A stretch of DNA of 64,000 nucleotides from Streptomyces europaeiscabiei (lineage in GTDB: Bacteria; Actinomycetota; Actinomycetes; Streptomycetales; Streptomycetaceae), in contig NZ_CP107841.1 of NCBI RefSeq assembly GCF_036346855.1, positions 5,026,001 through 5,090,000 of the forward strand, written 5' to 3'. The position numbers and the translations under genes were made by a program. Numbering within the stretch: position 1 is the stretch's first letter; the number at the start of each line of letters is the position of its first letter. The notes below the pieces were generated by a model. That model searched no databases, was not told where the DNA came from, and was given only the letters and a program-made list of their open reading frames with translations. Shown piece after piece: positions 33,854-62,321 of the stretch.

Positions 33854-34141
33854 TCACGTGCGGTGCGTGATGTCGGTCCAGCGCCAGGCTCGCAGGGACG
33901 AGTCGGTGAAGATGCGGTCCAGCGCCCTGCCCAGATCCGGGTCCGTCTCCGTCTCCGGGTCCGTCTCCGTCTCCGGGTCCGTGGGCCACCGAAGGCGAAC
34001 GGTGAAGCGTTCGCCCGCGAACTCCGGTTCGTAGTCCCAGCCTTCGGGCAGCAGGGCGATGAACCGTACGGCTGCCAGTTCCGGGGCACCGGCCGCCTCG
34101 GTGGAGCGGGGTTCGATCAGGACGACGCGGCGGCCCGTCAT
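33854..34141 (-). CDS. Small hypothetical protein coupled to lanKC
   Basis: 95 aa, soluble. RRVVLIEPRS..LAAVRFIALLPEGWDYEPEFAGERFTVRLRW, then TDPETETDPETETDPD (an 18-bp DNA repeat), then DRIFTDSSLRAWRWTDI. Its ATG overlaps the LanKC stop by 4 bp (ATGA), so it is the last gene of the peptide operon. No recognised family. The strict coupling suggests a helper for the synthetase (inference). Confidence 0.6.
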   Translation of the reverse strand: MTGRRVVLIEPRSTEAAGAPELAAVRFIALLPEGWDYEPEFAGERFTVRLRWPTDPETETDPETETDPDLGRALDRIFTDSSLRAWRWTDITHRT

Positions 34142-36870
34142 GAGGGGCGCCGGCGGGAGGACGGGAAGAACGGCAGGCTCCCGCCCGAGCCCAGTGCCTC
34201 GTCAAGGGCGAGCAGGACTCCCGCTGTGCCGGTGGCGAGGTCGGTCGACAGGCGCAGGGTCTGGTCGCCGAGGAAGGCGGGGTGGCCCGCGTACGGGATG
34301 GCGTGCCAGCCGAAGGCCACCAGGTGGCGGCGTACTGCGGCCTCGGTCTCCGACTTCGGCTCCAACACCGACTTCGGCTCCGACCCCGGCTCCGGCTCCG
34401 GCGTTCTGTCGCGCAGGTGACGCAGGGCGAGCGTCGCCCCGGCGCGGCCCTGGAACAGGCCCGCCTGGGCTTGGTAGAGGGCCGCCACCGATGACTGGAG
34501 GAGGGGGAAGGAGTCGTTCAGCTCCGGCTCGGGGAAGGGGAGATGAGGGAGTACGTCGCTCACGACCATCGCCACTCCCGCCCCGCCCACCGCCAGGTAC
34601 GGCATCCGGCTGATGCCCGGCCCGGCCGACAACTCGGCGAGGTCGTGACGCAGCGCCTCCACCGCCCCGTGCAGCAGCTTCCGGTCACCCGTCTTCTCGT
34701 ACAGCCGCAGCAGGAACAGTGCCGCGCCCGTCGCCCCGTACAGCAGGCCCGGTCGTGGGCGGGCCGCGTAGCCGCCCGGGGTACGGTCCGCGACCAGCTC
34801 CGCGAGGCGTTCGGCCGCGTCGAGGTGGCCGAAGTGGAGCAGGGAGAGGCCGATTCCGGGGAGGCCGGCGAAGAGGGAGCCGTCCAGGTCGTCCAGCGGC
34901 AGGGCGAGGGCACGGTCCAGGACTTCACGGGCCTCGACCGTACGGCCCAGGGCGTCGAGGGCGTACGCGATGCCGTGCAGGCCGTCGTAGAAGCCGGGGC
35001 GGGGGTCGGCCCAGCGGCGTACGCGCTCGGTCAGCCAGTCCACGTGTGCGGCCGGGATCTCCGTACCCGCGCCGCCCAGCGCCCACAGGACTCCGGCGGC
35101 GCCGTGGGCGAGGTCGAGGCCGCCGCCCGGGTCGGTGAACTGGGCGATGTCGCCGGGGAAGAGGCGGTCCTCGCGGTCCGGGGTCGCGGTGGCCAGGATT
35201 CCGGCCGCGAGTGACGCGCGCAGGGACGGCCAGTCGGCGGGGGTGAGGGTCTCGGGCCAGACCGGGGCAGCGGCGCGCTCGGCGCTCACTGCGGCCTCGG
35301 TGTCCGCCTCGGTGTCCGCGTCGGTGTCCGCCTCGGTGTCCGCCTCGGTGTCCGCGTCGGTGTCCGCCTCGGTGTCCGCGTCGGTCTCAGCGTGCGCGTC
35401 GGCCGCGTCGGCCTTGGCGGCCTCGGTCGCCTCGCCGCCCTCCGGGCCCGCCAGATCCGCCGCCACCCGCTCCGCGAAGTCCGCCGGTACCGGGAAGTTC
35501 TCCGTCACCAGCGCGATCAGCTGCTGTGTCTTCTCCCGGCCCCAGCCCACCACCACCGTCAGCGGCAGGAACACCGCGAGCCGCAGGCAGCCGAGCGCGT
35601 ACCGGTCGACCGCCGCGCCCACGTAACCGGCCGGGGCGCGGAAGCCGGGCGCGCCGATCGCCTGAGGTGCCTCGTCGTCTACCGGGGTCGCCGTCTCCAG
35701 GTCGATGAAGGCGATCGTGCCGTCCGGCCGGACCAGGACGTTGTTGGGGTGCAGATCACCGAAGACCACACCCCGGGCGTGCATGGCCCGCACGCCCGCG
35801 TCGATCTGGTCGATGACGGACAACGCCCACGAGGTGTACGCCGCGAACGACCCGGGGGAGGCGTCGGCATCCGGGTTCAGCAGTGGGTTGGACTCGTGGA
35901 TGCGGGTATGGAGCGATGCACCGGGCACGAACTCCCGTGCCAGGAAGTAGTGTTCGCGGCCTTTTCGGTAGTCGATCAGCGGCGGTACGCAGTCCAGTCC
36001 CGCCAGCCGCTCCAGCGCCCAGCGCTCCCGCTCCAGCCGGGCCACCGCGTCCGCGCCCTCCTCGTCGAGGCCGGCCAGCGGGCGGGCCTCCTTGAGGAGC
36101 ACGGAGGCGGAGGCCTCGGTACCGGGGCCCTGGCGCAGGTCCGCGGCCTCGTACACGCCGCCCCCGTTGGAGAAGTGCAGCGCCCTGACCGCGCGGAACG
36201 GGAAGTCGCCCATCGTGCTCGCGTTACGGGCCGCCAGCGACTCGGCGAGGCAGTCCGGCAGCGTCACCCACGCGGGCGGCCGGAACCCGGGGCCGCGCAC
36301 ATCGGGGACGAGGCGGCCGTCCGGGTCCTCGATGCAGTGCACCGGGTCGCCCTTCGCGTCCCGGCCGAGGCGTGCGACGAAGCCGCCGTAGCGGACGTAG
36401 AGCGGGCCGGAGCGCCAGCGCAGGTCGCTGAGGATGTACGGGCCGGGCTCGCCGCCTATCTCGGCGTCCAGCTCGACGAGCACCCGCTCCAGCTGGGGCT
36501 CGTCCAGCGGGTAGACGGTGATGAACTTGCCGCTCGCGCCGCGGTCGCCGTACTTGCTGTTGCGCCGGCTCAGGACCTTGGCGCTGCGGATGTACTTGAA
36601 GGTGAGCCGCTCGCGTACGCAGTAGGCGCGTACGACGTCGAGGATGTGGTCGGCGTTGTCCCGGGTCGCCGAGACATGGATCTTCCAGCCCTGGCCGGGG
36701 AGTTCGGTGCGCGGCGGGGTCAGCACCACCCAGTCGCTGTTGACGGTCCGGGTCCAGCCCGCGGGGGGTTCCGCCACGACGTCGGCGGGCTCGGTGGTGG
36801 CAGCGGCGGTCGCCGGGTCCTCGTAGAACGCGTTGCCCGCCTGGCAGTAAGTCACATACCGGAGATCCAT
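34138..36870 (-). CDS. lanKC: Class III lanthionine synthetase-like protein (LanKC)
   Basis: 910 aa. Residues 1-210 correspond to the lyase domain. A Ser/Thr-kinase domain spans about 230-490 (Lys260 in VLLKEA; catalytic loop VFGDLHPNNV with Asp372; FIDLE in place of DFG at 388-392). An acidic linker of DADT/EADT repeats fills 497-527. The LanC-like domain runs from about 570 (GLDLAHGAAGV, FYDGLHGIAYAL, GLPGIGLSLL). No Cys-His zinc ligand motif is present, as in class III. Expected chemistry: phosphorylation of Ser/Thr, elimination to Dha/Dhb, with cyclisation only if Cys is available. The ATG at 36870 has AGGAAG. Confidence 0.93.
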   Translation of the reverse strand: MDLRYVTYCQAGNAFYEDPATAAATTEPADVVAEPPAGWTRTVNSDWVVLTPPRTELPGQGWKIHVSATRDNADHILDVVRAYCVRERLTFKYIRSAKVLSRRNSKYGDRGASGKFITVYPLDEPQLERVLVELDAEIGGEPGPYILSDLRWRSGPLYVRYGGFVARLGRDAKGDPVHCIEDPDGRLVPDVRGPGFRPPAWVTLPDCLAESLAARNASTMGDFPFRAVRALHFSNGGGVYEAADLRQGPGTEASASVLLKEARPLAGLDEEGADAVARLERERWALERLAGLDCVPPLIDYRKGREHYFLAREFVPGASLHTRIHESNPLLNPDADASPGSFAAYTSWALSVIDQIDAGVRAMHARGVVFGDLHPNNVLVRPDGTIAFIDLETATPVDDEAPQAIGAPGFRAPAGYVGAAVDRYALGCLRLAVFLPLTVVVGWGREKTQQLIALVTENFPVPADFAERVAADLAGPEGGEATEAAKADAADAHAETDADTEADTDADTEADTEADTDADTEADTEAAVSAERAAAPVWPETLTPADWPSLRASLAAGILATATPDREDRLFPGDIAQFTDPGGGLDLAHGAAGVLWALGGAGTEIPAAHVDWLTERVRRWADPRPGFYDGLHGIAYALDALGRTVEAREVLDRALALPLDDLDGSLFAGLPGIGLSLLHFGHLDAAERLAELVADRTPGGYAARPRPGLLYGATGAALFLLRLYEKTGDRKLLHGAVEALRHDLAELSAGPGISRMPYLAVGGAGVAMVVSDVLPHLPFPEPELNDSFPLLQSSVAALYQAQAGLFQGRAGATLALRHLRDRTPEPEPGSEPKSVLEPKSETEAAVRRHLVAFGWHAIPYAGHPAFLGDQTLRLSTDLATGTAGVLLALDEALGSGGSLPFFPSSRRRPS

Positions 36871-36900
36871 GATCGTTCTTCCTGTCCCTCTCCGTCTCGG

Positions 36901-36932
36901 CTTCTCGGCTTCTCGGCTTCTCGGCTTCTCGG
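36901..36932. repeat. 8-bp tandem repeat between lanKC and mpaP
   Basis: Four exact copies of CTTCTCGG fill most of the 62-bp gap between the mpaP stop and the lanKC start; the array ends at the last base before the mpaP stop codon. Confidence 0.9.
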
Positions 36933-38600
36933 CTACCAGCGCCAGGCCGGCGCGACGTACTTGGTGTAGAGCCACTCCCAGCCCGGCCGGCTGCCCGCGT
37001 CCAGCTGGGCCGCGCCCGAGACGTCGGCGGGAGTTCGGCCCTGCCCATCACGTGTCTCCAGCGGAAGGCCGAGCGCCGGGGTCGGCAGGGCCTCGCTGCG
37101 GACCGGGATCAGGGCCGACAGCGGGGCCATGGCGTCCGTGCCGTCCGCCCCGTCGACGGCGACCGTCGCGGCGCCGGTCTGCTCGCGGGTCGCGATGCCC
37201 GCGCGGTAGAGGCGTACCGGGGCACCGGCCTCGATCAGCGAACGGTCGGTGGAAGGGGGCAGGAGCAGCGTGATCCGGCCGTCCTTGGCCGTCGTATAGC
37301 CGCCGTTGACGGTGTACGGGACCTGGACCAGCTGCCCGAGTACCGCGATGGCGGCAGCGGCGAGGGCTAGCACCGCGCCGAGGCGCCAGGGGAGCCCGCC
37401 CGCCGTACGGGCCTCGCGAGCGAAGCGGCGTACGCCACGCGCCAGGTGGTGGAGGAAGTAGCCGATGCCGCACAGCACGAGGAGCGCGCCCAGGGCGCCG
37501 AGGCGCTGGAGGCTGTCCGACCACAGGGTGATCGCGCCCGCCACGATGTAGAGCGGGAAGGTCATGCAGAGCAGGCCGAAGGGGACCGCCCAGCGCACGC
37601 CGGGCAGTTCGCGGCGGTAGCCGGTGCCGCCGGCCAGCAGGCGGGCCAGCCATCTGCGGGCGTCGGTCATCGCCCGGTCGCGCAGATGCGGGATGTCGAG
37701 GTGACTCATCAGCGCGATGTAGCCGTCCAGCTTCACGAACGGCAGGAGGTTGAGAACGCCGGAGAGATAGGTGACGACGGCGTACACGAGGACCCCGTCG
37801 CGCGCCGCCGAGTCGCCCATGAAGAGGGTGGCGAGGGCGGCGCCCCCGGCGATGACGGTCTGTGTGGCGATTCCGGCGAGTGCGACCCGTACCCGCTGTT
37901 CCTTGCGCGGCAGCCGCCACCCGTCGGACACGTCGCAGAAGAAGGCCGGCGACATGTAGAAGAGCATCATGCCCATCCGGGTCGGCCGTCCGCCGTAGTA
38001 CGTGAGGACCGCGCCGTGGCCGATCTCGTGGACGGCGGTGGTGGCGAGCACCGCGCCGATCACGCAGAGGTAGAGCAGGGGCGCGAAGGGGCGCCCCAAC
38101 GCGCCCTGGAGATCGGCCGTCTGGAGGGCCAGGGCGAGCAGTCCGCCGATCGTGACGGCCGAGGCGACCAGGGCGGCCTTACGGTTCGCGGCGGCCTCGA
38201 CCAGCGGGGCGAGCCGGGCCAGCAGCCGGTCCGGCTTGAGGAGGGTGAACTGGAGGGTGAGCGGCGGGACGAACCGGAACCAGGAACTCCGGTCCTTCTT
38301 CGGCACCCCGTCGTCCAGCACCTTCGCCCCGGCGAGCGTCCGCACCGCCGAGCCGACATCGGCCTGGGTCCAGGGCGCGCCGAGGGCGTCGGCCAGGTCG
38401 TCGTGGTCGCGTACGCCGTCGACGGCCCGGACGAGGCGGGCCAGGTCCTCCTGGAGGCGGAAGTACTGGTGGCTGCCGCGCTGCACCACCCAGGGCGCAC
38501 CCGGCTCGGCCGGCTCGTGGACCACCACGTCGGGGGCGAGGCGGGGACGGGCCAGCCGCTCGGGGGCCAGTAGTACGGCACCGGCGGGTGTGCTGGACAT
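36933..38600 (-). CDS. mpaP: Daptide-type intramembrane metalloprotease (M50-like)
   Basis: 555 aa. An N-terminal ~110-residue domain resembling a RiPP-recognition/PqqD-like fold (GSHQYFRLQEDLARLVRAVDG) precedes a site-2-protease core: HEIGH at 191-195 and the second zinc motif NLLPFVKLDGY at 284-294, among about nine membrane helices. It should remove the leader peptides during maturation or export. Start ATG at 38600 with GAGGAG. It lies between the exporter genes and lanKC. Gene symbol follows the Microbacterium mpa cluster, from memory. Confidence 0.85.
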   Translation of the reverse strand: MSSTPAGAVLLAPERLARPRLAPDVVVHEPAEPGAPWVVQRGSHQYFRLQEDLARLVRAVDGVRDHDDLADALGAPWTQADVGSAVRTLAGAKVLDDGVPKKDRSSWFRFVPPLTLQFTLLKPDRLLARLAPLVEAAANRKAALVASAVTIGGLLALALQTADLQGALGRPFAPLLYLCVIGAVLATTAVHEIGHGAVLTYYGGRPTRMGMMLFYMSPAFFCDVSDGWRLPRKEQRVRVALAGIATQTVIAGGAALATLFMGDSAARDGVLVYAVVTYLSGVLNLLPFVKLDGYIALMSHLDIPHLRDRAMTDARRWLARLLAGGTGYRRELPGVRWAVPFGLLCMTFPLYIVAGAITLWSDSLQRLGALGALLVLCGIGYFLHHLARGVRRFAREARTAGGLPWRLGAVLALAAAAIAVLGQLVQVPYTVNGGYTTAKDGRITLLLPPSTDRSLIEAGAPVRLYRAGIATREQTGAATVAVDGADGTDAMAPLSALIPVRSEALPTPALGLPLETRDGQGRTPADVSGAAQLDAGSRPGWEWLYTKYVAPAWRW

Positions 38601-38710
38601 GCCTGGTTCTCTCCTCAGGACGGCGGGACGTGGCGGGTTTCAGCGGACTCGGACGACGCGGGATGTCGTCGGGCGGCATCGGGCGGCATCGGGCGACGTC
38701 AGTGGCCGCC

Positions 38711-38920
38711 AGGCGGACTCAGACAGCAACAGATGCCGTCGGGCAGCTCGGACGAACGTTGGACGAGGGCAGGCGGCATCGGACGACATCAGATGTCGTC
38801 AGGCAGCATCGGACAACAACAGATGTCGTCAGGCAGCATCGGACAACAACAGATGTCGCCAGGCAGCTTCGAACAAGGTCAGACGACGTCAAGCGGCTGC
38901 GAACGACGTTCAGACGACGT
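38711..38920. repeat. 30-bp imperfect tandem repeats between exporter and mpaP
   Basis: About seven units of 30 bp. The best copies (38771, 38801, 38831) share AGGCAGCATCGGACAACAAC followed by AGATGTCGTC; flanking units are more diverged, and the last overlaps the permease stop codon. No spacers. The 309-bp gap has no supported gene. Because the period is a multiple of 3, several frames stay open by chance. Confidence 0.85.
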
Positions 38921-39653
38921 CGCGGGCGGTGAACAGCTTCCGGGCGAGCAGCCCTGCGGCCGCGAGCCAGCCCGCGATCACCAGCAGCGCGAGCGGCGTG
39001 GACAGCAGCTCGGGCTTCATGTCCCGGTAGACGGAGCTCTGGGCGATCGTCATCAGGTATTTGCCGGCGTCCGGCACCAGGACCTGCACCGCCGGATCGA
39101 CGACCAGGGTCAGCGCGACGACGGTCACGACGGCCCCGACCTGGTGCCGGACGATCCAGCCGATCAGCGCGCCCCAGGGAGCGGCGAGCGTGTTGACGGC
39201 GAAGACGCCCAGCAGGATCAGCCAGGTCTCGCCGTGCCACGCGGGCTCGGTCCCGTTGGCCGCGAGTGCCCCCCAGGCGGAGGCGAGGGACAGCGCGGCG
39301 GTGAACAGCGCGGCGAGGGCGCCCACGGCGGTGGCGATCAGCACCTTGGCGGCGAGCAGGCGGGTACGGCCGCCGCTCATCAGCACGGAGCGGCCGATGG
39401 CGCCCGAGGTGTACTCGCGGGACACGAAGACCGCGCCGAAGAGGGAGGTGAACAGCGACATCATGAACCAGGAGCGGACGATGTCATCGGTGACGGCTGC
39501 CCGGCCCATGGTGCCCTCGTCGATGGCCGTGGCGCCCTGGGAGGCGTAGCCGAGGGCACCGAGCAGGGACATCAGGACGCCGCACCCGGCCAGGATCAGC
39601 CAGCCGCGGCCGGTCCAGGCCTTGGCCCATTCGCCGGCGAGCAGGTTACGCAT
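38910..39653 (-). CDS. ABC-2 type permease of the daptide exporter
   Basis: 247 aa, six hydrophobic segments. Starts MRNLLAGEWAKAWTGRGWLIL, contains SREYTSGAIGRSVLMSGGRTRLLAAKVL, typical of bacteriocin/lantibiotic-type ABC-2 permeases (an S-E--SG---S-L--G pattern). Its start overlaps the ATPase stop by 8 bp. It should export the mature peptide or protect the producer. Confidence 0.88.
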   Translation of the reverse strand: MRNLLAGEWAKAWTGRGWLILAGCGVLMSLLGALGYASQGATAIDEGTMGRAAVTDDIVRSWFMMSLFTSLFGAVFVSREYTSGAIGRSVLMSGGRTRLLAAKVLIATAVGALAALFTAALSLASAWGALAANGTEPAWHGETWLILLGVFAVNTLAAPWGALIGWIVRHQVGAVVTVVALTLVVDPAVQVLVPDAGKYLMTIAQSSVYRDMKPELLSTPLALLVIAGWLAAAGLLARKLFTARDVV

Positions 39654-40428
39654 GGTTCTGTCCTCCGACAGCGGATGATGCGGTCGTCGCCGTGCCGACC
39701 AGGGAGAAGAACCGGTCTTCGAGGCGTTCCCCTTCGCCCGCGCCGACGAGTCCGTCGAGCGGACCGGCGTACCGCAGCGAGCTCTGGATGATCACGACGT
39801 CGTCCACGGTCTGCTCCACCTCGGAGAGCAGATGGCTGGAGACGAGGACGGTCCGGCCCTCGTCGGCCAGGCCGCGCAGCAGGCCGCGCAGCCAGCGGAT
39901 GCCGTCCGGGTCGAGGCCGTTGGCGGGCTCGTCCAGGACGAGGAGTTCGGGGTCGGGGAGCAGGGCGGTGGCGAGCGCGAGGCGCTGCTTCATGCCGGTC
40001 GAGTAGCCCTTGACGGGGCGGGAGGCCGCGCCGTCGGCCAGGCCGACCAGTTCGAGGACCTCCTCGACGCGCTGCTTGGGCAGGCCCAGGGTCCGGGCCC
40101 AGATGGTGAGTTCGCGTCGGGCACTGGCTCCCGGCAGCGGTCCTACGGCGTCCATGCTGACGCCCACCCGGCGAGCGGCGTGGGGCAGTTCGGCGTACGG
40201 GCGGCCGAAGACGGCCGCCTCGCCGGAGGTCGGCCGGCACAGGCCGAGGAGCATCCGCAGCGAGGTGGTCTTACCTGCTCCGTTGCGGCCTAGGAGGCCG
40301 ACGATCCGGCCGGGCTGCACCTCGTACGTCAGGTCGTCGACCGCCGTGACCTCGCCGAAGCGCTTGGTCAGGCCGCGCAGGGCGACGACGGGGGCGGCAC
40401 CGGTGCTTGAGGCGTTCGCGGTACTCAA
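39646..40428 (-). CDS. ABC transporter ATP-binding protein of the daptide exporter
   Basis: 260 aa. Walker A GRNGAGKTT at 47-55, signature YSTGMKQRLALA, Walker B LLVLDEPANGLDPDG, H-loop SSHLLSE. BcrA/MutF-like self-protection subfamily. Overlaps the small membrane protein upstream by 4 bp (ATGA) and the permease downstream by 8 bp. Confidence 0.92.
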   Translation of the reverse strand: MSTANASSTGAAPVVALRGLTKRFGEVTAVDDLTYEVQPGRIVGLLGRNGAGKTTSLRMLLGLCRPTSGEAAVFGRPYAELPHAARRVGVSMDAVGPLPGASARRELTIWARTLGLPKQRVEEVLELVGLADGAASRPVKGYSTGMKQRLALATALLPDPELLVLDEPANGLDPDGIRWLRGLLRGLADEGRTVLVSSHLLSEVEQTVDDVVIIQSSLRYAGPLDGLVGAGEGERLEDRFFSLVGTATTASSAVGGQNHA

Positions 40429-40622
40429 CGGCGCGCCTTACGGAGGTTGGCACCGATCCGGACCAGGCAGCTCAGCATGACGACACCGAGGCCGGCCATG
40501 ACGAAGATCTCGAGGCCGCCCGTCAGCTGCGTGGTCGCGACCGCCATGCCGAGCGGGATGAGAGCGCAGGCGAAGGCGAGGTTCTTGTTCTCGGCCGCTG
40601 CCTTGTCTCGGCTGTTGGCCAT
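40425..40622 (-). CDS. Small two-helix membrane protein
   Basis: 65 aa. Basic N-terminus (MANSRDKAAAENKN), two hydrophobic spans at about 15-33 and 37-56, basic end GANLRKARR. Unknown family. Coupled to the ATPase, it is probably an accessory or immunity component of the exporter (inference). First gene after the hairpin that follows the precursor genes. Confidence 0.65.
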   Translation of the reverse strand: MANSRDKAAAENKNLAFACALIPLGMAVATTQLTGGLEIFVMAGLGVVMLSCLVRIGANLRKARR

Positions 40623-40660
40623 GCTGGACTCCTTGGTGGGGCGAGGTGGTGGAAAACGAA

Positions 40661-40730
40661 GCGCGGATTCCGCGGTGGCGGCCCAGGGTCCTGTGAGGTC
40701 CCAGGGACGCCGCCGCGGAAATCCGTATGC
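40661..40730 (-). terminator. Hairpin between precursor genes and exporter genes
   Basis: Outer stem GGATT.CCGCGG..GCGGC with its complement GCCGCGG.AAATCC, inner stem CCT-GTG-AGG. On the minus strand it lies between precursor 2 and the exporter genes, the right place for an attenuator that keeps precursor mRNA more abundant than downstream mRNA. Confidence 0.65.
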
Positions 40731-40751
40731 GGTTCAGTCGCCGCTGATCAA

Positions 40752-40860
40752 CTGGATCCGGTGGATCCGGTGGATCCGGTGGATCCGGTGGATCCGGTGG
40801 ATCCGGTGGATCCGGTGGATCCGGTGGATCCGGTGGATCAGGTGGATCAGGTGGATCAGG
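40752..40860. repeat. 9-bp minisatellite overlapping the stop of daptide precursor 2
   Basis: Twelve tandem 9-bp units of GGTGGATCC (nine with GGATCC, the last three with GGATCA). On the minus strand they read ACC TGA TCC three times, then (ACC GGA TCC)n, so the precursor's own TGA is the first of three in-frame stops and the rest would encode Thr-Gly-Ser. Confidence 0.95.
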
Positions 40861-41011
40861 TGGCGATGACCGCGCTGGCGACGGTGCTGATCACGACGCC
40901 GGTCTTGAAGCCGCTCCAGAAGCCCGGGGCTTCCATGGCCTCCAGCTCCTGCATGCCCAGCTCCAGCGATGCGTCGAAGCCGTTCGGCTCCTGCGTGACG
41001 GTGTCCTTCAT
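40856..41011 (-). CDS. mpaA2: Daptide precursor peptide 2
   Basis: 51 aa. The leader half contains LELGMQELEAMEAPG (residues 16-30), shared exactly with precursor 1; the hydrophobic core FWSGFKTGVVISTVASAVIAT starts near residue 31 and ends in the obligatory C-terminal Thr. No Cys. A Shine-Dalgarno (GGGAGGGG) lies 7 nt before the ATG. The C-terminal Thr is the expected site of conversion to a dimethyl-1,2-propanediamine end group, and the core Ser/Thr are potential LanKC targets. Confidence 0.9.
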   Translation of the reverse strand: MKDTVTQEPNGFDASLELGMQELEAMEAPGFWSGFKTGVVISTVASAVIAT

Positions 41012-41110
41012 ATCCGTTCCCCTCCCGTTGAGTTGAGACTGAATCGAGTCGAGTGAATCAGGTCCACCAGCCGGGCCTTCATGGCCTCCTGCTGCACGAC
41101 CACGGGCCGA

Positions 41111-41284
41111 TCAGGTGATGATCGAGACGGCGACGCCCGTCGAGACACCGACGGCCGACACGACGGTCGCACCCACGACGACGCCACCGGCGGTCCACCA
41201 GCCCGGGGCCTCCATCGCCTCGAGCTCCTGCATACCCAGCTCCAGGTCGGAGCTGAAGTTGTTGTTGTCGAAGTTCTCCTGCAT
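41111..41284 (-). CDS. mpaA1: Daptide precursor peptide 1
   Basis: 57 aa. Leader MQENFDNNNFSSDLELGMQE, then LEAMEAPG, then a strongly hydrophobic core (GWWTAGGVVVGATVVSAVG, then VSTGVAVSIIT) ending in Thr. No Cys. The ATG at 41284 is chosen over an in-frame ATG 21 bp upstream because AGGGGGAG lies at the right distance. Conserved leader motif with precursor 2; the two genes are about 100 bp apart on the same strand. Confidence 0.92.
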   Translation of the reverse strand: MQENFDNNNFSSDLELGMQELEAMEAPGWWTAGGVVVGATVVSAVGVSTGVAVSIIT

Positions 41285-41332
41285 GGGAACTCCCCCTTTT
41301 CTCATGAGTGTCGAGAGCCGTTGCTCTCTTTT

Positions 41333-41360
41333 CCGCCCGCTCCCGGGATCGGGAGCGGAA
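41333..41360 (-). terminator. Hairpin between mpaC and precursor 1
   Basis: CCGCTCCC-GGGATC-GGGAGCGG (41337-41358), followed on the minus strand by GAGAG..CTCTC. Together with the hairpin at 40661-40730 it brackets the precursor genes. Confidence 0.5.
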
Positions 41361-41363
41361 GTC

Positions 41364-42653
41364 TCAGGTGTGCGCGGGATGCGCAGTGCGGGCGGTGTGC
41401 GCGGTGCGGGCGGTGTGCTTGGTGCTCGTGGGGTGCACGGTGCTCGTTTTGGTCGCGCCCAGTGCCGCGTCCAGCAGGCGGCGCACGTCCTCCGCCCGGA
41501 GCCCGCCGAGCATCGGCAGCCCGGCGCCCCAGGCCCGTACGGTCCGCTCGGCCAGGGCCTCGATCTGCCCCGGGCCGCCAGCGGTGAGCCGCCGGCCCAC
41601 CCGCCAGTCGTCCATCAGGGCCTCGATCCCGTCGGCCGGGTCCGCGGGCAGGGCCTGCGCCCGGTCCCGCGGTGCGGCGTCGCGCAGCCCCGCCCACATC
41701 CGGTGCAGCCGCGGCGCGGAGCCCAGTCGTGGCTCCCCGTCGAGCACGGCCCGCCACAGGTGCGGCAGCAGCGCGGCGACGGCGGTCATCTTCCGTACGC
41801 CCAGGGCCGACGACATCTCGTTGGCGATGAGCCAGCCCTTGACCGCGTACGGGTCGCGGCCCTGGTGCAGCCATTCACCGTGCGTGAGCCCGCTGAGCTT
41901 CGCGATGTCGAGGCGGAGCGCGTCGCCCGGCTTTTCCTCCCGTACCGCCTCGTAGCCGAGTTGGACGAGCCGCCGGGCGACCGTCTCCGTCAGACGGTCC
42001 TCGGTGCGGCGGTCGTCCCGGTGGTCACCGGCGTACGGACTGACCGCCCGGAACAGCGCCTCCAGGACGCCCTCCACGACCAGTTCGCGGGGCAGTGTGG
42101 CGGTGGCCGACGGATCGAGCAGTGCCGCCTCCGGCCGCAGTACGCCGCCGAGGATCAGCCGCTTGCCCTGCGGGTACGCCAGGCAGGCGACCGCGCTCAG
42201 CTCGCTGCCGGTGCCGAGGGTGGTCGGTACGGCGAGCAGCGGGACGGTACGGGTGACCTCGCCCGGCAGGCCCATCAGACCGCCGCGCTGGGGCACGGTG
42301 AGGCGGGTGTACGCGACCGGGTTGGCCCGCAGCAGAGCCGCGATCTTCGCCTGGTCGAGCACCGATCCGCCGCCGATGGCGACCACCAGGCCGATGCCGG
42401 CGAGCTTGTCGGCGAGGCCTTCGGCGATCGCGGCAGCCGTGCCGAGATCACCGGGGCCGGTGGTCAGTGGTGTCTGGGTCGTCCGCCAGTGGGCCCGGCC
42501 GAGGCGGTCCCGTACCAGGGCCGTGATCCCCGCCGTCGCGACAGCGCTGTCCACGAGGAGGGCGGCCGTGCGGCCCGCCCCGTCGGGGAGCCATGCCGTG
42601 AGGGCGTCGGGACCGATCAGCGCCCGGGTCGGTCCGCCCCGGCCGTAGCTCAT
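41364..42653 (-). CDS. mpaC: Daptide-type dehydrogenase (iron-containing alcohol dehydrogenase fold)
   Basis: 429 aa. NAD-binding motif VVAIGGGSVLDQAK around residues 91-103 and VPTTLGTGSELSA around 143-154, both typical of the group III iron-ADH fold. Proposed role: oxidise the side-chain hydroxyl of the C-terminal Thr so that the beta-keto acid decarboxylates to a methyl ketone. The C-terminal 25 residues are a low-complexity HTARTAHTARTAH tail. It overlaps the aminotransferase by 4 bp. Confidence 0.85.
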   Translation of the reverse strand: MSYGRGGPTRALIGPDALTAWLPDGAGRTAALLVDSAVATAGITALVRDRLGRAHWRTTQTPLTTGPGDLGTAAAIAEGLADKLAGIGLVVAIGGGSVLDQAKIAALLRANPVAYTRLTVPQRGGLMGLPGEVTRTVPLLAVPTTLGTGSELSAVACLAYPQGKRLILGGVLRPEAALLDPSATATLPRELVVEGVLEALFRAVSPYAGDHRDDRRTEDRLTETVARRLVQLGYEAVREEKPGDALRLDIAKLSGLTHGEWLHQGRDPYAVKGWLIANEMSSALGVRKMTAVAALLPHLWRAVLDGEPRLGSAPRLHRMWAGLRDAAPRDRAQALPADPADGIEALMDDWRVGRRLTAGGPGQIEALAERTVRAWGAGLPMLGGLRAEDVRRLLDAALGATKTSTVHPTSTKHTARTAHTARTAHPAHT

Positions 42654-43975
42654 GCCGGTACCTCCGTGTGCGCTTCCGCCGGCGCCGACTGGCCGGTGAA
42701 CAGGGCCAGTCCGGCGCGGATGCGGTCCATCAGCTCGGTCAGTTCCGCGTCGGTGTAGGTCAGCGCGGGGAAGAGCTGGATGCCGTGGACGCCGGGGTGC
42801 ACGATGGCGCCCGCCGTACGGATCGCGGCGACCAGTTCCGGGACGCGTGCCTGTGGCAGCGGTTCCCCGTCCGGGGTGGTCAGCCGCAGCGAGCGGAAGC
42901 AGCCCAGACCGGTGGTGCCCGTCACCCAGGGGTGCTCGTCGACCAGCCGGGACAGCTCCGCGTCCAGCCGTTCGCCCAGGGCCCGGCCGAGGGCGACCGC
43001 GTCCAGGCGGCGCATCTCGGCGATGGTGGCCAGGATGGCGGCGCAGGTGGCGGGGGTGCCGGCCTGGGTCTCGCCGTGGGTCAGCATGGCGCCCGCCGTG
43101 TCGAAGGCGTCCGCGACCGTGTGCGAGGCGATGACGGCTGCGGCGGCGCTCGTACCGTTGGTGAGCCCCTTGGAGGTCACCAGGAGGTCGGGCCGGGCGG
43201 ACCAGCGCTGGGAGGCGAAGAAGTCGCCGGTACGGCCGAAGCCGGTGGCCACTTCGTCGGCGACCAGCAGGAAGCCGTACTCCTCGCGCAGCCGCAGCAG
43301 TTCTTCGACGTACTCCTCGGTGAGCGGCACCGCCCCCGAGCCGAGCACCGGCTCGACGACGACGGCCGCGACCATGGCTCCCTGACGTTCCATCAAGGTA
43401 CGGATACCGAGCGGGTCGTTGGGGTCGACGTGGCGGATGAGGCGCTGGTCGACGCCGTACACCTGTTGTCCGAGGTCCTCACCGGTCAGCGCGAAGCTGC
43501 CGTACGTCAGACCGTGGTAGCTGCCGCGCAGCCCGACCACGAGTTTGCGGCGATCCTCGCCGCGCAGTGCGTGGTAGTGGCGGGCGAGCTTCATGACCAG
43601 GTCGTTGGCGGCGCCGCCGGAGGTCGAGAAGAGGACCCGGCCGTAGGTGTCGGCGCCGCACAGCTCGACGAGGGCGGCGGCCGCGGCACGGGCGTAGCTG
43701 TTCTCGTAGCGGAAGACGCTCAGGTACGAGGCTTCGCGGAGCGCTTCCGCGGCGGCCTGGGCGATGGCTTCGTTGCCGTAGCCGATGTTGGTGTTCCACA
43801 ACCCGCTGGAGGCGTCGAGGAGTTCACTGCCGTCGGCGTACCGGACCCGTACCCCGTGCGCGGAGACCGCGCAGAGCGCGTCCGAGCCGTGCAGGGCGGG
43901 GGCCAGGAGGGACGGCCACAGCGCGTGCTTCGTGCTCTTCGTGCTCTTCGTGCTCTTCGTGTGTACGGGACTCAT
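42650..43975 (-). CDS. mpaD: Daptide-type class III aminotransferase
   Basis: 441 aa PLP enzyme. Schiff-base Lys269 in LVTSKGLTNG; Asp240 in LLVADEVATGFGRTG; STSGGAAND binds the phosphate. Expected to aminate the C-terminal ketone made by the dehydrogenase, giving a 1,2-propanediamine end. N-terminus has a KSTKSTKSTK repeat. Start and stop overlap both neighbours by 4 bp (ATGA). Confidence 0.88.
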   Translation of the reverse strand: MSPVHTKSTKSTKSTKHALWPSLLAPALHGSDALCAVSAHGVRVRYADGSELLDASSGLWNTNIGYGNEAIAQAAAEALREASYLSVFRYENSYARAAAAALVELCGADTYGRVLFSTSGGAANDLVMKLARHYHALRGEDRRKLVVGLRGSYHGLTYGSFALTGEDLGQQVYGVDQRLIRHVDPNDPLGIRTLMERQGAMVAAVVVEPVLGSGAVPLTEEYVEELLRLREEYGFLLVADEVATGFGRTGDFFASQRWSARPDLLVTSKGLTNGTSAAAAVIASHTVADAFDTAGAMLTHGETQAGTPATCAAILATIAEMRRLDAVALGRALGERLDAELSRLVDEHPWVTGTTGLGCFRSLRLTTPDGEPLPQARVPELVAAIRTAGAIVHPGVHGIQLFPALTYTDAELTELMDRIRAGLALFTGQSAPAEAHTEVPA

Positions 43976-44823
43976 GGCGTGACCTCCGTTTCGAGCAGTA
44001 CTTCGAGCAGTACGTCGTGGTGGCGGGAGCCGACGGCCGGCAGCGGGTGCCGGGCGTGGACGGCGAATCCGGCGGCGCCCAGTTCGGCTTCGAGGAGGGC
44101 GGCGGGCAGCACGCCGACGCTGGTCGTGGTGACCTGGACGGGGCTGTCGTCGTCCGGGATCCGCGCCGGGAAGACGGTGACCGTGCGGGCGCTGTCGCCG
44201 ACCGCCCAGTGCTCGTACATCCGGTAGGCGCGGCCGGCTTCGGCTTCCACCACCAGTTCGGCCTCGGCTGGCTGGCCGGAGTCCGTGTCCATGCCGACGG
44301 TCGACAGAAGGAACCGGCCGCCGGGCGCGAGGTGCTGGCGTACGGCCCGGTAGAGACCGGTCCGGCCGCGCTCGTCGAGGAGCGAGACGGAAGTGGTGCC
44401 GAGGACGATCACCGGGAAGGTGCGGCCGAGCGCGAAGGCGCTCATGTCGGCCTCGACGACCGTGCAGCGCTCGCTCAGGGCGGCGGGCGCGGCGGCCAGC
44501 CGGTCTTCGAGGAGCTGCAACATGTACGGGGAGAGGTCGAGGGCGGTGACCCGTCGGCCCAGTGCGAGCAGCGGCATGGTCAGCCGCCCGGAGCCGGCCG
44601 CCAGGTCGAGGACATCGCCGGGCAACGTCCTTACGAGGCTGGTCAGTTCACGTACTTCGTGGGTGCTGCGGCCGGCCACGTCGTGGTAGACCTGCGCGCC
44701 CGCTTCGGCGTAGAGGTCGCCGGTGACGGCTCGGGAGCCGAGTTCGGCGAGCAGCTCCCCGGCCCGTCCGGGGATGGTGACCGGGCTGGTCGGTGTCGTC
44801 GGGGTGGTCAGGGTGGTGGTCAT
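43972..44823 (-). CDS. mpaM: Daptide-type SAM-dependent N-methyltransferase
   Basis: 283 aa. SAM motif I VLDLAAGSGR at 71-80, then VTALDLSPYML and VVEADMSAF. It should dimethylate the new C-terminal amine to the Dmp group. ATG at 44823 has GGAG 10 nt upstream; a GTG at 44832 overlapping the preceding stop (GTGA) is an alternative. N-terminus is Thr-rich (MTTTLTTPTTPTSP). Confidence 0.87.
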   Translation of the reverse strand: MTTTLTTPTTPTSPVTIPGRAGELLAELGSRAVTGDLYAEAGAQVYHDVAGRSTHEVRELTSLVRTLPGDVLDLAAGSGRLTMPLLALGRRVTALDLSPYMLQLLEDRLAAAPAALSERCTVVEADMSAFALGRTFPVIVLGTTSVSLLDERGRTGLYRAVRQHLAPGGRFLLSTVGMDTDSGQPAEAELVVEAEAGRAYRMYEHWAVGDSARTVTVFPARIPDDDSPVQVTTTSVGVLPAALLEAELGAAGFAVHARHPLPAVGSRHHDVLLEVLLETEVTP

Positions 44824-44828
44824 CGTGG

Positions 44829-45875
44829 TCACACTCCGGCCCGTGCGAGGAACCGCTCGATGCGTACGGTGTGGTCCGGATCGGCGAACTCCGCCGCCGC
44901 CTCGGCCGAACCGCAGGCCAGCAGTGCCTCGACCGGCGTGGCGGCTGCCCGTTCCACACTGAAGGTCCTGCCGGGGGCAGGAGCGTGGACGTACACGTCC
45001 TGGTCGGTCCACAGGAGGAGCGGCGCGTCCGCGTCCCGCAGGTCGGCGTCGGCGCCGGCGCCGGCGGCCAGCGCGTCGGTGATCCGCCCGCCGAAGCCGG
45101 AGACCCGGATGCTGCCGTCCACACCCCGGGCGCGCAGGGCCCGGATCGCGGCGAGGGCGGCCAGGTAGCGCCCGAGCCAGGGCCGGGCGGCCAGTTCGGT
45201 ACGCCGAAGGTCGTGGTCCACAGCCGTCCCCAGGCACACCGCGCATGTTGTCCGTGCGCCGCTGTTGAGCCGCTGCCACTGTGCGTCGAGGAGTTCGGGC
45301 CCGTCGCCCGCCGTACCGAGGCGGGTACCGCCCGGCGTGGTGGAGACGGCTCCGTCCGCGTCGACGTACAGCCGGTACCGGGGTCCGGCGGCCGGCGTGC
45401 GGTCGGCGCCGAGGCCGGGGAGGTCGGCGAGCTGGATGGCGGGGTGGGTGAGGAAGTCGGGGAAGGTGCCGTCGAGCAGGGCCCGGTCGGCGTCGGCGAG
45501 GAAGACGTCGAAGTCCGTGTCGTCGGCGATCCGGACGAGGGTCGGCCCGGCGACGGACATGTACTCGCTGATGCCGTAGCCCTGGATCTGGAGGTAGAAG
45601 CCCGCGCCTGGCGAGAACTCGCCGCCGGCCCCGGCCAGCGACCCTTCGTACCCGACGATGCGGCGGCCGTCCGTCGTCGTGTCCTCGCCGGGCACACCGG
45701 GCACGAGTACCAGCGTGTCCGTTCCGACGACACCGGAATTCATCATCGCCGTAAGGTGCTCCCGGTTTTCCAGTACGACGGTTTCCACACCGTCGTACGA
45801 GAATTCACCGGTAGTGGTGCCGGCACTGGCCGTACCAGTCCCCCAGCGGATGAGCCGCTCTTTCAGATCAGCCAT
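44829..45875 (-). CDS. mpaB: Daptide biosynthesis RiPP-recognition protein
   Basis: 348 aa, soluble. No classical enzyme motif; distinguishing features are FSPGAGFYLQIQGYGISEYM (about 87-106) and a CxxC at Cys211/Cys214 (TTCAVCLGTAVDHDLRRTELAARPWLGRYLAAL). It corresponds to the conserved MpaB-type protein of daptide clusters, thought to bind the leader and present it to the C-terminal modifying enzymes. ATG at 45875 has GGGGGAAG upstream; a GTG 18 bp earlier is possible. Confidence 0.75.
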   Translation of the reverse strand: MADLKERLIRWGTGTASAGTTTGEFSYDGVETVVLENREHLTAMMNSGVVGTDTLVLVPGVPGEDTTTDGRRIVGYEGSLAGAGGEFSPGAGFYLQIQGYGISEYMSVAGPTLVRIADDTDFDVFLADADRALLDGTFPDFLTHPAIQLADLPGLGADRTPAAGPRYRLYVDADGAVSTTPGGTRLGTAGDGPELLDAQWQRLNSGARTTCAVCLGTAVDHDLRRTELAARPWLGRYLAALAAIRALRARGVDGSIRVSGFGGRITDALAAGAGADADLRDADAPLLLWTDQDVYVHAPAPGRTFSVERAAATPVEALLACGSAEAAAEFADPDHTVRIERFLARAGV

Positions 45876-45895
45876 TGTTTCGTCTTCCCCCACGG

Positions 45896-46915
45896 TCAGG
45901 CGGCCAGGGCGGCCAGAATTCGCTTCGTTTCGTCCAGGGCCGCTTGTGGGCCGTACAGATTACAAACGCCGGTCAGGTTCAGGACGACCTCGTCCACCCC
46001 TGCCTCGCGGAACGCGCCCAGTTTTCCGACGAGTTCGTCCGGGTCTCCGCTGAGGAACGCCCCGCCGTCGACGAGCGCCTTGGCGTTCGCCGCCGGGTCG
46101 TCACCGGCAACATCCGTTCCGGACCGGCGCAACATGTCGATGTAGTGGGCGCCCTGGAGATGGGCGGCGTTGCTCGCGAGCGCCAGTTCGGCGGGTTCGC
46201 GGTCGGGCCGGGCGAGGGCGAGCGGCACGATGGCGGTGAGCCTCGGGGTTCTGCGCCCCCTGCCCCCCTTGCCGTCCGCCGCGTTCACCGCGTCCGCCGC
46301 TTTCACGGCGTTCACCGCGTTCGCCGCGCCCTCGCGCATCGCCGGGAGCACGGTGTCCCGCAGGTAGTGCGCCGGAGTCAGCCAGGTCACGGCGACATCG
46401 GCAACCTCACCTGCGAGCTTCGCCATGCCGGGCCGCAGCACACCGAGCCCGATCTCCACACCCGGCACCGGGTAACGAGGCATCTCGGCCCGGCAGCTGA
46501 AGTACTCGCCCCGGGTGTCGACGGTCTCGCCCGCCAGCAGTCCGCGCACGATCGAGAGGTACTCGCGCGCCGCCGTGAGCGGACTGCGGTACGCCTCGCC
46601 GAGCAGCGACTGCTGCAACTGCCGGCCGCCGGGCCCGAATCCGGCGATCACCGGCTGCCCGGTGGCCATCGCCAGCGAGCGGGCCTGGAGAGCGGCCTCG
46701 TACGGGTGGCGGAGCGGCATGAGCGTGACGCCGAGTCCGGTCGGCACGCGGAATCCCGCTCCCGCCGCCGCGACGAATCCCTGGTGCGGCTCGATCATCA
46801 CGGACTGCCCCTGCCAGAGGCGGCTCGCGTTGCTCCAGTGCACCAGTCCGGCGTACGGAAGGATTTGTTCCGGCCGGCGCGGGAGAAAGGGCAGGAGTAC
46901 GGAATAAGAAGTCAT
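45896..46915 (-). CDS. LLM-class flavin/F420-dependent oxidoreductase
   Basis: 339 aa luciferase-like TIM barrel: MTSYSVLLPFLPRRPEQILPYAGLV at the start, RVPTGLGVTLMPLRHPYEAALQARSL, AREYLSIVRGLLAGETVD, and the C-terminal FREAGVDEVVLNLTG. A repeat AVNAVKAADAVNAADG sits in a loop near residue 210. LLM proteins use FMNH2 or F420H2. In lanthipeptide pathways F420H2-dependent members (LanJC type) reduce Dha/Dhb to D-Ala/D-Abu, a plausible role beside LanKC (inference). First gene of the minus-strand cluster; GGAGG Shine-Dalgarno. Confidence 0.82.
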   Translation of the reverse strand: MTSYSVLLPFLPRRPEQILPYAGLVHWSNASRLWQGQSVMIEPHQGFVAAAGAGFRVPTGLGVTLMPLRHPYEAALQARSLAMATGQPVIAGFGPGGRQLQQSLLGEAYRSPLTAAREYLSIVRGLLAGETVDTRGEYFSCRAEMPRYPVPGVEIGLGVLRPGMAKLAGEVADVAVTWLTPAHYLRDTVLPAMREGAANAVNAVKAADAVNAADGKGGRGRRTPRLTAIVPLALARPDREPAELALASNAAHLQGAHYIDMLRRSGTDVAGDDPAANAKALVDGGAFLSGDPDELVGKLGAFREAGVDEVVLNLTGVCNLYGPQAALDETKRILAALAA

Positions 46916-47198
46916 GCCCTGTCCTCCATTTCGCGACGTAATTGGTTGATGCCGGCAGGTACTGCTTGTCCTGCGTTTCTCTTTCTTCTGTCGGCGTTCG
47001 TTCGTTCCGACACAGAGAACAATGCCAAACCGGAGCACGTCATCGGGCAGTTCCAGGGCGCTACTTGCTGCCAGTGACCGTGCAGCTTGTTGCAGGTACC
47101 CTCACTGTGATCACACCGCCGGATTCAGGCCGTCCTGCGCGCCTGACCAGCGCGCCGACTTGCGACCGGCGACCGATTGCGTTCTGTACGGAGGCACC
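46916..47198. promoter_or_regulatory. Divergent promoter region of the daptide/LanKC cluster
   Basis: 283 bp between the first biosynthetic gene (minus) and the regulator (plus). On the plus strand GTGACC-N17-TACCCT (47074-47102) is a candidate promoter, followed by a palindrome TGTGATCACA at 47106-47115 that could be an operator. Lower GC than the flanking genes. Confidence 0.45.
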
Positions 47199-48218
47199 AT
47201 GGGGGAATTGTCCGTACTCGGGCTCACCGATACGGAAGAGGGCATCTACCGGCACTTTCTACGGAACCCCGGCACCACCGCCGAGGACATCCAGCTGCTG
47301 CTGCATGTCCCGTTGGACGAGATCGGGAGCGCGCTGGAGCACCTGTCCGAGCTCGGCCTGCTGCACGAGACGGAAGGGACCGGAACCGGAACGGACGGCG
47401 GGCCCGGGGCGATGTCCGCCGCCGACCCCGAGATCGCCGTGGACCGGCTCACCGACCTGCGGCTGCGTGAACTCCACCAGCAGCTTCAGCAGGTCACCCA
47501 GTCCCGGCACCTGATAGCCGGCCTGCGCGCCGAGCAAAGCGTGAAGGAGCAGCCGGACACCGGGAGAATCGAGCGCCTGGAAGATCTCGGCCAGATCCGG
47601 GGCCGAATCGACGACCTGGCGTTCTTCGCCCGCGAGGAGATCCTCTCGGTCGAGCCGTACACCGAGCTGACTCCGGCGAACATCGCGCACGCCCGGCCGC
47701 TCGACACCCGCTGTCTGCGGCGCGGGGTACGGATACGCAACGTCGTCCTGCGCGAAGCCCTGGACCATCCGCCGACCGTCGGCTATCTGCGCGACCTCAC
47801 CTCGCTCGGCGCGCAGATCCGGGTCGCGGACACCATCGCGGAACGGCTCCTCGTCTACGACCGCCGCACAGCGCTCGTCCCGGTCGACCCGGCCGACACC
47901 CGGCGCGGGGCTCTGCTCGCCCGGGAGGCGGGGCTGGTCGCGAACATCCTCGCGCTGTTCGAGAAGATCTGGGACCAGGCCACCGATCTCACCGTGCTCA
48001 TCGACGAGCGGGCGGGGGCGGAGGGCGGAGGGCTCTCGGAGATGGAACAGCAGGTCCTGGAAGCGATGTGCCACGTCGGCAAGGACGAATCGGGGGCACG
48101 CTCGCTGGGTGTGTCGGTGCGGACGTACCGCCGTCATGTCGCCGACGTACTGCGCATCCTGGGCGCGAGCAGCAGGGCGCACGCGGCGCTCCTTGCACGG
48201 GAGCGCGGCTGGGTGTGA
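47199..48218 (+). CDS. Transcriptional regulator, TrmB-like N-terminus with LuxR-type HTH
   Basis: 339 aa. An N-terminal winged-helix of the TrmB sort (LGLTDTEEGIYRHFLRNPGTTAEDIQLLLHVPLDEIGSALEHLSELGLL), a central phospholipase-D-like sensor region with LSVEPYTELTPANIAHARPLD.. RGVRIRNVV, and a C-terminal LuxR-like HTH (LGVSVRTYRRHVADVLRILGASSRAHAALLARERGW). This architecture often controls streptomycete RiPP clusters. ATG at 47199 has CGGAGG. Divergent from the cluster, it is the obvious pathway regulator. Confidence 0.85.
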   Translation: MGELSVLGLTDTEEGIYRHFLRNPGTTAEDIQLLLHVPLDEIGSALEHLSELGLLHETEGTGTGTDGGPGAMSAADPEIAVDRLTDLRLRELHQQLQQVTQSRHLIAGLRAEQSVKEQPDTGRIERLEDLGQIRGRIDDLAFFAREEILSVEPYTELTPANIAHARPLDTRCLRRGVRIRNVVLREALDHPPTVGYLRDLTSLGAQIRVADTIAERLLVYDRRTALVPVDPADTRRGALLAREAGLVANILALFEKIWDQATDLTVLIDERAGAEGGGLSEMEQQVLEAMCHVGKDESGARSLGVSVRTYRRHVADVLRILGASSRAHAALLARERGWV

Positions 48219-61727: not shown

Positions 61728-62321
61728 ATGAACGTCACCCTTCACCTCGCCCAGGACCCCGAGGCGGACGAGCTCCTCGGGCGCAGTCCGCTCGCCGCGC
61801 TGGTCGGCATGCTGCTGGACCAGCAAGTGCCGATGGAGTGGGCGTTCAAGGGCCCGCGGACCATTGCCGAACGGCTCGGCGCGGACGACCTGGACGCCCA
61901 CGAGATCGCGGCGGCCGACCCGGAGTCCTTCGTCGCACTGCTGTCCACGAAACCTGCGGTACACCGCTACCCCGGTTCCATGGCCAAGCGGATCCAGCAA
62001 CTGTGCCAGTACCTCGTCGACCACTACGACGGCGACGCGAGCGCGGTCTGGCAGGACGCGACGACGGGCGAGGAGCTGCTCTCCCGCCTCGAATCCCTCC
62101 CGGGCTTCGGGCGGCAGAAGGCCCAGATCTTCCTCGCCCTGCTCGGCAAGCAACTCGGCGTCCACCCCACCGGCTGGCGCGAAGCCGCCGGCTCCTACGG
62201 CGACCCCGACTCCTTCCGCTCCGTGGCCGACATCAAGGGCCCCGACTCCCTGGCCAAGGTCCGCGCCCACAAACAGGAAATGAAGGCAGCGGCCAAAGCG
62301 GCGAAAGCCTCCGGCAAGTAA
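61728..62321 (+). CDS. HhH-GPD-type base-excision DNA glycosylase
   Basis: 197 aa. The helix-hairpin-helix LPGFGRQKAQIFLALLG is around 125-141; LAALVGMLLDQQVPMEWAFKGP near the start is the family's Q-rich helix. The expected catalytic Asp region (GWREAAG..) follows. Related to endonuclease III/AlkA but shorter; substrate unknown. Lys/Ala-rich C-terminus. ATG at 61728 directly after the GC array. Confidence 0.85.
   Translation: MNVTLHLAQDPEADELLGRSPLAALVGMLLDQQVPMEWAFKGPRTIAERLGADDLDAHEIAAADPESFVALLSTKPAVHRYPGSMAKRIQQLCQYLVDHYDGDASAVWQDATTGEELLSRLESLPGFGRQKAQIFLALLGKQLGVHPTGWREAAGSYGDPDSFRSVADIKGPDSLAKVRAHKQEMKAAAKAAKASGK

Follow-up and report, generated by a model that had tools for sequence, protein, structure and literature searches.

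A daptide gene cluster of the LanKC/LanJC subgroup in Streptomyces europaeiscabiei with a probable Ser-to-D-Ala module

Daptides were defined by Ren et al. in 2023, who noted that LanKC/LanJC pairs occur in the family (PMC10036551). The sca cluster from Streptomyces capuensis NRRL B-3501 was expressed and is reported to give products with a C-terminal Dmp and, in ScaA2, five Ser residues converted to Ala; D-Ala was found there by Marfey analysis of a mixture of two products (PMC10036551). Dmp chemistry and hemolysis are reported for other clusters, the hemolysis for the LanKC-free daptides 1-3, which are also described as alpha-helical (PMC10036551). The DapKC and DapJ proteins of Thermobifida fusca were described by Dommaraju et al. 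in 2025 (PMC12338566). Since sca and the T. fusca DapKC/DapJ are in print, the enzyme set considered here is already known, and the cluster is a fresh example of a set described and tested in 2023. The first-pass annotation of this DNA, which knew of no described product with these enzymes, has to be amended on this point, as products of the sca cluster have been published and hominicin has been identified as a daptide (PMC10036551). What is added here are counts of the pairing of the two enzymes, a single clade of daptide LanKCs, and class V relatives with Cys-containing precursors.

The window (the whole stretch of DNA analysed, 64,000 nucleotides) carries a minus-strand run from 46915 to 34138 in the order J, DapB, DapM, DapD, DapC, A1, A2, a 65-aa ORF, T1, T2, DapP and LanKC. 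The features are as follows.

47022..48218, plus strand: R, divergent TrmB-type protein (PF01978)
45896..46915, minus strand: J, LLM-class oxidoreductase of 339 aa (PF00296, E 7.2e-26), probable LanJC-type dehydroalanine reductase (DapJ) from its pairing with LanKC and its homologues beside other lanthipeptide dehydratases
44829..45893, minus strand: DapB, MpaB-like RRE protein of 354 aa (NF041823, 420.8 bits, cut-off 150)
43972..44823, minus strand: DapM, N-methyltransferase (NF041820, 334.1 bits, cut-off 175; the start is a chosen one)
42650..43975, minus strand: DapD, class III aminotransferase (NF041821, 662.5 bits, cut-off 450)
41364..42653, minus strand: DapC, oxidative decarboxylase of the Fe-ADH family (NF041822, 483.5 bits, cut-off 300)
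41111..41284, minus strand: precursor A1, 57 aa (NF041808, 32.9 bits with the longer start scanned, cut-off 25)
40856..41011, minus strand: precursor A2, 51 aa (read from the sequence and by motif search)
40425..40622, minus strand: 65-aa ORF between A2 and T1, no Pfam family
39646..40428, minus strand: T1, ABC transporter ATPase (PF00005)
38910..39653, minus strand: T2, ABC-2 type permease (PF12730, 28.1 bits, cut-off 27; PF12698 below cut-off; adjoins T1 in relatives)
36933..38600, minus strand: DapP, intramembrane metalloprotease with HExxH (NF041824, 533.1 bits, cut-off 300)
34138..36870, minus strand: LanKC (DapKC) of 910 aa, made up of a lyase, a kinase and a cyclase domain (NF038151, 903 bits, cut-off 575)
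33854..34141, minus strand: 95-aa ORF, no Pfam family, cluster membership possible either way

DapB, DapC, DapD, DapM and the RRE-protease DapP are all present, each above its NCBIfam cut-off, and these family scores together with the conservation of the set in relatives exclude chance as its source. In DapP, H191, E192 and H195 are invariant in an alignment of 21 sequences. The gene content and coordinates agree with the first-pass annotation, whose B, M, D, C, P and LanKC assignments all score above curated cut-offs; its description of the run as mostly coupled by 4-bp overlaps was overstated, as these occur at three of the 11 junctions (M/D, D/C and 65-aa ORF/T1), while T1 and T2 overlap by 8 bp and the remaining seven junctions are gaps of 2 to 309 bp, given the chosen starts. 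The 95-aa ORF after LanKC overlaps it by 4 bp.

For comparison, 79 named daptide loci were drawn from the best 80 of the 131 matches to a DapP alignment and were searched for two kinds of dehydratase, LanKC and the class V pair; 57 of these loci are LanKC-positive. The closest clusters among the matches listed, with DapP 93-97% identical, are those of S. europaeiscabiei (L059), S. stelliscabiei (L060) and S. scabiei (L061), species tied to potato scab. A similar ORF to the 65-aa ORF, on which the earlier annotation was silent, was found in 4 of the 57 LanKC-positive relatives. Proteins similar to R occur in 19 of the 57 LanKC-positive loci and in none of the 22 others of this set, and one is also present in the LanKC-free L057 of another locus set; R is a possible regulator of the cluster. 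Tandem repeats lie after A2 (9-bp unit, window 40753-40863), between T2 and DapP (30-bp unit, 38722-38876), near the DapD start (9-bp unit, 43928-43961) and at 35294-35385 (12-bp unit), the last coding for the acidic repeat of the LanKC linker. Elsewhere in the window, ARAGORN called a 90-base tRNA-Ile at 62175-62264, which is unusually long for Ile and may be a false call.

Both precursors carry an ELExMEAP-like leader and end in Thr (A1 also by family scan, both by motif search), and both are free of Cys, as first noticed in the initial annotation. The predicted core of A1 has 30 aa and starts with GWWT, that of A2 has 22 aa and starts with GFWS, and each contains three Ser. The A1 start is most likely the ATG at 41284, giving 57 aa, not the one at 41305; by eye, a purine-rich, Shine-Dalgarno-like stretch precedes both genes. 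L059, the nearest named relative among the matches listed, encodes precursors identical to A1 and A2.

We conclude that this is very probably a daptide cluster of the LanKC/LanJC subgroup, with LanKC and an LLM-class putative reductase in one cluster, whose products would carry a Dmp C-terminus and D-Ala in place of Ser, and no rings. In the proposed pathway, the ELExMEAP part of the leader LELGMQELEAMEAP would be bound by DapB and DapP, and its overlapping LxMQ part perhaps by LanKC. The C-terminal Thr would be oxidatively decarboxylated by DapB/DapC, then transaminated by DapD and dimethylated by DapM to give Dmp. LanKC would phosphorylate Ser and eliminate the phosphate to give Dha, which J would convert to D-Ala; DapP would cut off the leader after Pro, and T1/T2 would export the two peptides. 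For the S. europaeiscabiei strain all of this chemistry is deduced, and we likewise predict that the inner Thr are left alone and that the peptides act on membranes. With Dmp and three D-Ala each, the calculated [M+H]+ is 2735.60 for A1 and 2133.26 for A2; with the Dmp change and unmodified Ser, it would be 2783.58 and 2181.24.

The LanKC of the window has the RamC_N, Pkinase and LANC_like domains of Pfam. Of the alignment columns conserved to 90% or more in 60 control LanKCs (a set first limited to the best-scoring proteins and then widened), it retains 35 of 36 in the lyase, 33 of 34 in the kinase and 41 of 43 in the cyclase domain. The motifs WKIH, SGKF, LLKEARP, GDLHPNN and FIDLETA are present and appear to mark catalytic positions, as read by eye from the ThurKC paper and an alignment to a solved LanKC. 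The linker, which bears acidic repeats, is 72 residues long, whereas the median is 25. All 56 daptide LanKCs, the window included, form one clade (support 0.948) with none of the 60 controls inside, and LanKC distances follow those of DapP with r 0.95 over 52 loci. Among LanKC, J, B, C, D and P, the correlations of such pairwise distances range from 0.86 to 0.95 over the same 52 loci, window included.

Ordinary LanKCs form thioether rings (PMC10604976), and the window protein is the only one above cut-off in the 10.95-Mb genome, so one could imagine that it serves a separate Cys-containing lanthipeptide and merely adjoins the daptide genes. The single clade and its parallel with DapP make this extremely improbable, as does the Cys count that the first-pass annotation had proposed for LanKC-holding daptide clusters: the 58 LanKC-positive loci examined, the window among them, gave 116 unique cores, and none contains Cys. 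These counts cover cores; Cys occurs in six leaders of LanKC-positive precursors and, where inspected, stands before a later Met that resembles the true start. Elsewhere in the genome, a short N-terminal LanKC-like fragment (93.5 bits, profile positions 1-102) lies at G000:C1:9764299-9764750, with an adjoining weak match that contains an in-frame stop.

Because the cores contain no Cys, ring formation by this LanKC is improbable. When binned by equal kinase identity, the 56 daptide LanKCs have cyclase values 0.10 to 0.18 below their lyase values, versus 0.00 to 0.06 for the 60 controls; compared in this way, daptide cyclases resemble one another less, and daptide lyases more, than those of the controls do. 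A vestigial cyclase was considered and not adopted, since this gap has two sources and the conserved columns remain. The pattern fits a LanKC that has long been dedicated to daptides and on which the demand for ring closure has eased. The retained cyclase domain may still have a role; ThurKC cyclase-domain mutants lose dehydrations (PMC10604976), an effect that could explain its retention.

J scores above the cut-off of PF00296 and above no specific NCBIfam cut-off. The LLM family is broad, and the best solved relatives of J are F420-dependent methylene-H4MPT reductases, which are distant, so J might instead be an unrelated monooxygenase or F420 enzyme with a hydroxylating or housekeeping role. 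Its genomic company argues otherwise. In the genus, 45 matches to J were found in 41 of 199 genomes, and the neighbourhoods of 34 matches were inspected: five hold daptide genes (LanKC lying inside the stretch in two of them), 18 hold class V LxmK and/or HopA1 genes, four a LanM and one a TIGR03891 (thiopeptide-type bacteriocin domain) protein. Thus 28 of 34 have a dehydratase-type context, and six, one on a 3.8-kb contig, show no recognised dehydratase. The J homologues beside LanM are in L208, L227, L229 and L230, with two scanned LanMs in each of the first three and one in L230. J of the window likewise adjoins a lanthipeptide-type dehydratase, as a LanJC does, and in daptide loci it tracks either LanKC or the class V pair. 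An unrelated function therefore seems highly doubtful, and J is a probable LanJC-type dehydroalanine reductase.

The pairing was counted in the 79-locus set. LanKC and J occur together in 51 of the 57 LanKC-positive loci, and in the six loci with LanKC and no J the DNA upstream of DapP is cut off short of 8.8 kb; among LanKC loci with at least 8.8 kb there, J is present in 48 of 48. In L097, L101 and L119 the J-like gene does not head the run but is located some 4 kb downstream, on the opposite strand. The class V pair accompanies J in four loci and stands without it in one. The remaining 17 loci, two of them short records, have neither LanKC nor the class V pair, and J was found in none of them. 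An earlier set of 23 loci from the same family or phylum, which overlaps the 79, gave LanKC with J in 18 and neither in five, one of which (L051) matched DapB only. From these two sets of counts, J goes with a dehydratase in daptide loci. Because J is absent from 40 hand-picked non-daptide LanKC loci of the genus, the LanKC/J pair is a mark of daptides and not of LanKC as such.

The first-pass annotation had proposed that LanKC dehydrates and that nothing reduces, giving peptides with Dmp and Dha/Dhb (calculated [M+H]+ for Dmp plus Dha, 2729.55 for A1 and 2127.21 for A2). The LanKC does look intact, and the Staphylococcus daptide hominicin keeps dehydrobutyrines (PMC10036551). However, J heads the run to which LanKC belongs and is conserved in all 48 LanKC daptide loci with 8.8 kb or more of upstream DNA, and the sca products of a LanKC/LanJC pair are reported with Dmp, Ser converted to Ala, and D-Ala (PMC10036551). 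An unreduced end product is thus very improbable. The reading of a daptide pathway that includes an intact LanKC and offers it no Cys is supported, and LanKC probably acts as a dehydratase without closing rings, while the retention of Dha/Dhb in the final product is not supported; because J looks like a LanJC, each Ser is expected to become D-Ala, with a change of -16 Da and not -18.

The cores of LanKC-positive loci are rich in potential substrate residues. Their inner Ser/Thr number 3 to 11 in 116 cores, compared with 1 to 5 in 15 cores of 16 LanKC-free loci, and the mean inner Ser+Thr fraction is 0.246 versus 0.079, with overlapping ranges (lowest with LanKC 0.107, highest without 0.167). 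Adding six cores of L040 and L057 to the LanKC-free set brings its Ser/Thr fraction to 0.075 and gives a Gly fraction of 0.211, compared with 0.146 for cores with LanKC. The contrast is partly phylogenetic, since most LanKC-free loci among the 79 come from Arthrobacter and Paenarthrobacter; among same-family LanKC-free loci, the L040 and L057 cores are poor in Ser/Thr and one L049 core has five inner Ser/Thr.

A leader contrast was also seen. Gln precedes ELE in 145 of 154 precursors with LanKC and in 10 of 31 without, and the residue before that position is Met/Leu in 154 of 154 and Ile/Val in 31 of 31, respectively; in the LanKC-free L040, both precursors have Met and one of the two has the MQ form. 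Because the contrast follows phylogeny and L040 has Met/MQ without LanKC, it is no proof of LanKC binding, and the leader Gln was rejected as a mark of it.

Inner Thr is common in the cores, and both Ser and inner Thr might be processed, giving D-Ala and D-2-aminobutyrate (calculated [M+H]+ 2687.61 for A1 and 2101.27 for A2). For the LLM reductase of a class V cluster, a role in reducing Dha as well as Dhb has been put forward tentatively (PMC7794033). On the other hand, the five Ser of ScaA2 are described as converted and the account mentions no change at Thr (PMC10036551), and across LanKC-positive cores Ser tends to fall in the register of Gly and Thr in that of Val/Ile/Leu (59 cores; weaker in a 30-core set). 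We regard processing of Thr as rather unlikely.

The register was examined by shuffling within cores, with the first three residues and the last Thr excluded. The contrast between Ser/Thr/Gly and all other residues is strongest at 180 degrees per residue (z +7.8, 59 cores), and 100 degrees shows no maximum (z -1.4). For Ser/Thr by themselves the maximum is at 120 degrees (z +5.8), and the value at 180 is only +1.1. In nine LanKC-free cores the maximum for small residues is at 160 degrees (z +5.5), so some of the periodicity may be common to daptides. Simple alternation is disfavoured by the 120-degree peak of Ser/Thr and the 160-degree peak of the LanKC-free cores. In autocorrelation lag 4 is the strongest positive, which one helix face would also give. 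By pairs at even spacing, Ser-Gly reaches z +5.5 at redundancy 0.75 and +2.0 at 0.6 (30 cores), and Ser-Thr -4.8 and -1.7. With the first five residues dropped, the values at the same two levels are +4.7 and +1.9 for Ser-Gly, -2.6 and -1.0 for Ser-Thr, -0.4 and 0.0 for Thr-Gly, and +2.4 and +1.6 for Thr with Val/Ile/Leu; in LanKC-free cores Ser-Gly gives -1.2 (46 pairs). Ser sharing the register of Gly and Thr that of Val/Ile/Leu, as if Ser but not Thr ended as D, stays a hint because many pairs were tested after the data had been seen; the signal also fades under stricter removal of similar cores. A hand count of the window cores places 12 of 15 Ser/Gly at odd core positions and 4 of 5 inner Thr at even ones.

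Gramicidin and polytheonamide offer a beta-helix for comparison. One could picture a chain in which D-Ala made from Ser shares a register with Gly and L-Val/Ile/Leu/Thr occupy the other, so that L residues alternate over stretches with D or achiral ones. In membranes it would fold as a beta-helix of the gramicidin/polytheonamide kind, in place of the alpha-helix of daptides 1-3, with the Dmp cation capping it and, as a rule, two peptide types to a cluster; we consider this architecture improbable. By our own rule, GFW- and GWx-type cores occur together in 35 of 58 LanKC-positive loci, the window among them.

A less expected lead came from relatives with Cys-containing cores. In L112, L115, L117, L118 and L122 (Amycolatopsis and Lentzea), DapB, M, D, C and P with a YcaO are divergent from LxmK and HopA1 genes, and J stands beside the class V pair in four of the five (first 12 kb of each). 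The precursor found in each contains two Cys, ends in Thr and has a daptide-like leader. The family scans of the pair, run on L112, gave LxmK by NF038156 (377 bits, cut-off 315) and HopA1 by PF17914. These loci are likely daptide/class V hybrids and may be new: the main texts of PMC10036551 and PMC12338566 mention neither such hybrids nor Amycolatopsis or Lentzea, "class V" appearing once in a reference title, and no other paper on them was found by title and abstract.

Taken together, the cluster suggests another ready-made route by which ribosomal peptides gain D-amino acids and a cationic C-terminus. The counts make a testable rule, that a daptide LanKC with J is a Ser-to-D-Ala module and not a ring maker, and this rule extends the published remark that some daptide clusters hold LanKC/LanJC pairs.

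Among known systems, the class III ThurKC shares the LanKC architecture, and its leader pattern of hydrophobic-x-Leu-Gln resembles LxMQ (PMC10604976); class III lanthipeptides differ in that A1 and A2 lack the core Cys needed for (Me)Lan or labionin rings, hence no labionin or lanthionine is expected. The class V systems pristinin (PMC7794033) and lexapeptide resemble the pathway proposed for the window in dehydrating Ser and then converting it to Ala by a luciferase-like reductase, but their dehydratase is a separate kinase/HopA1-like pair and their rings come from Cys. Hominicin has the Dmp C-terminus predicted here and, in a related cluster, a lanthipeptide dehydratase; it differs in its Bacillota origin, its retained dehydrobutyrines and its dimethylated N-terminus (PMC10036551). 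The mpa cluster of Microbacterium paraoxydans has the same Dmp pathway, conserved leader motif and Thr end, but no LanKC/LanJC, having been chosen for the primary enzymes only, and the assignable residues of its product 1 are reported as L (PMC10036551). The tfDap cluster of Thermobifida fusca shares DapBCDMP, T1T2, DapKC and DapJ and differs in its YcaO, an imidazoline C-terminus having been shown with DapY (PMC12338566); the T. fusca record among our relatives (L083) has a DapP 51% identical, and tblastn with one YcaO query from a daptide locus found no YcaO in the window. The sca cluster, compared by its published description, shares with the window the daptide core genes and the LanKC/LanJC pair (PMC10036551).
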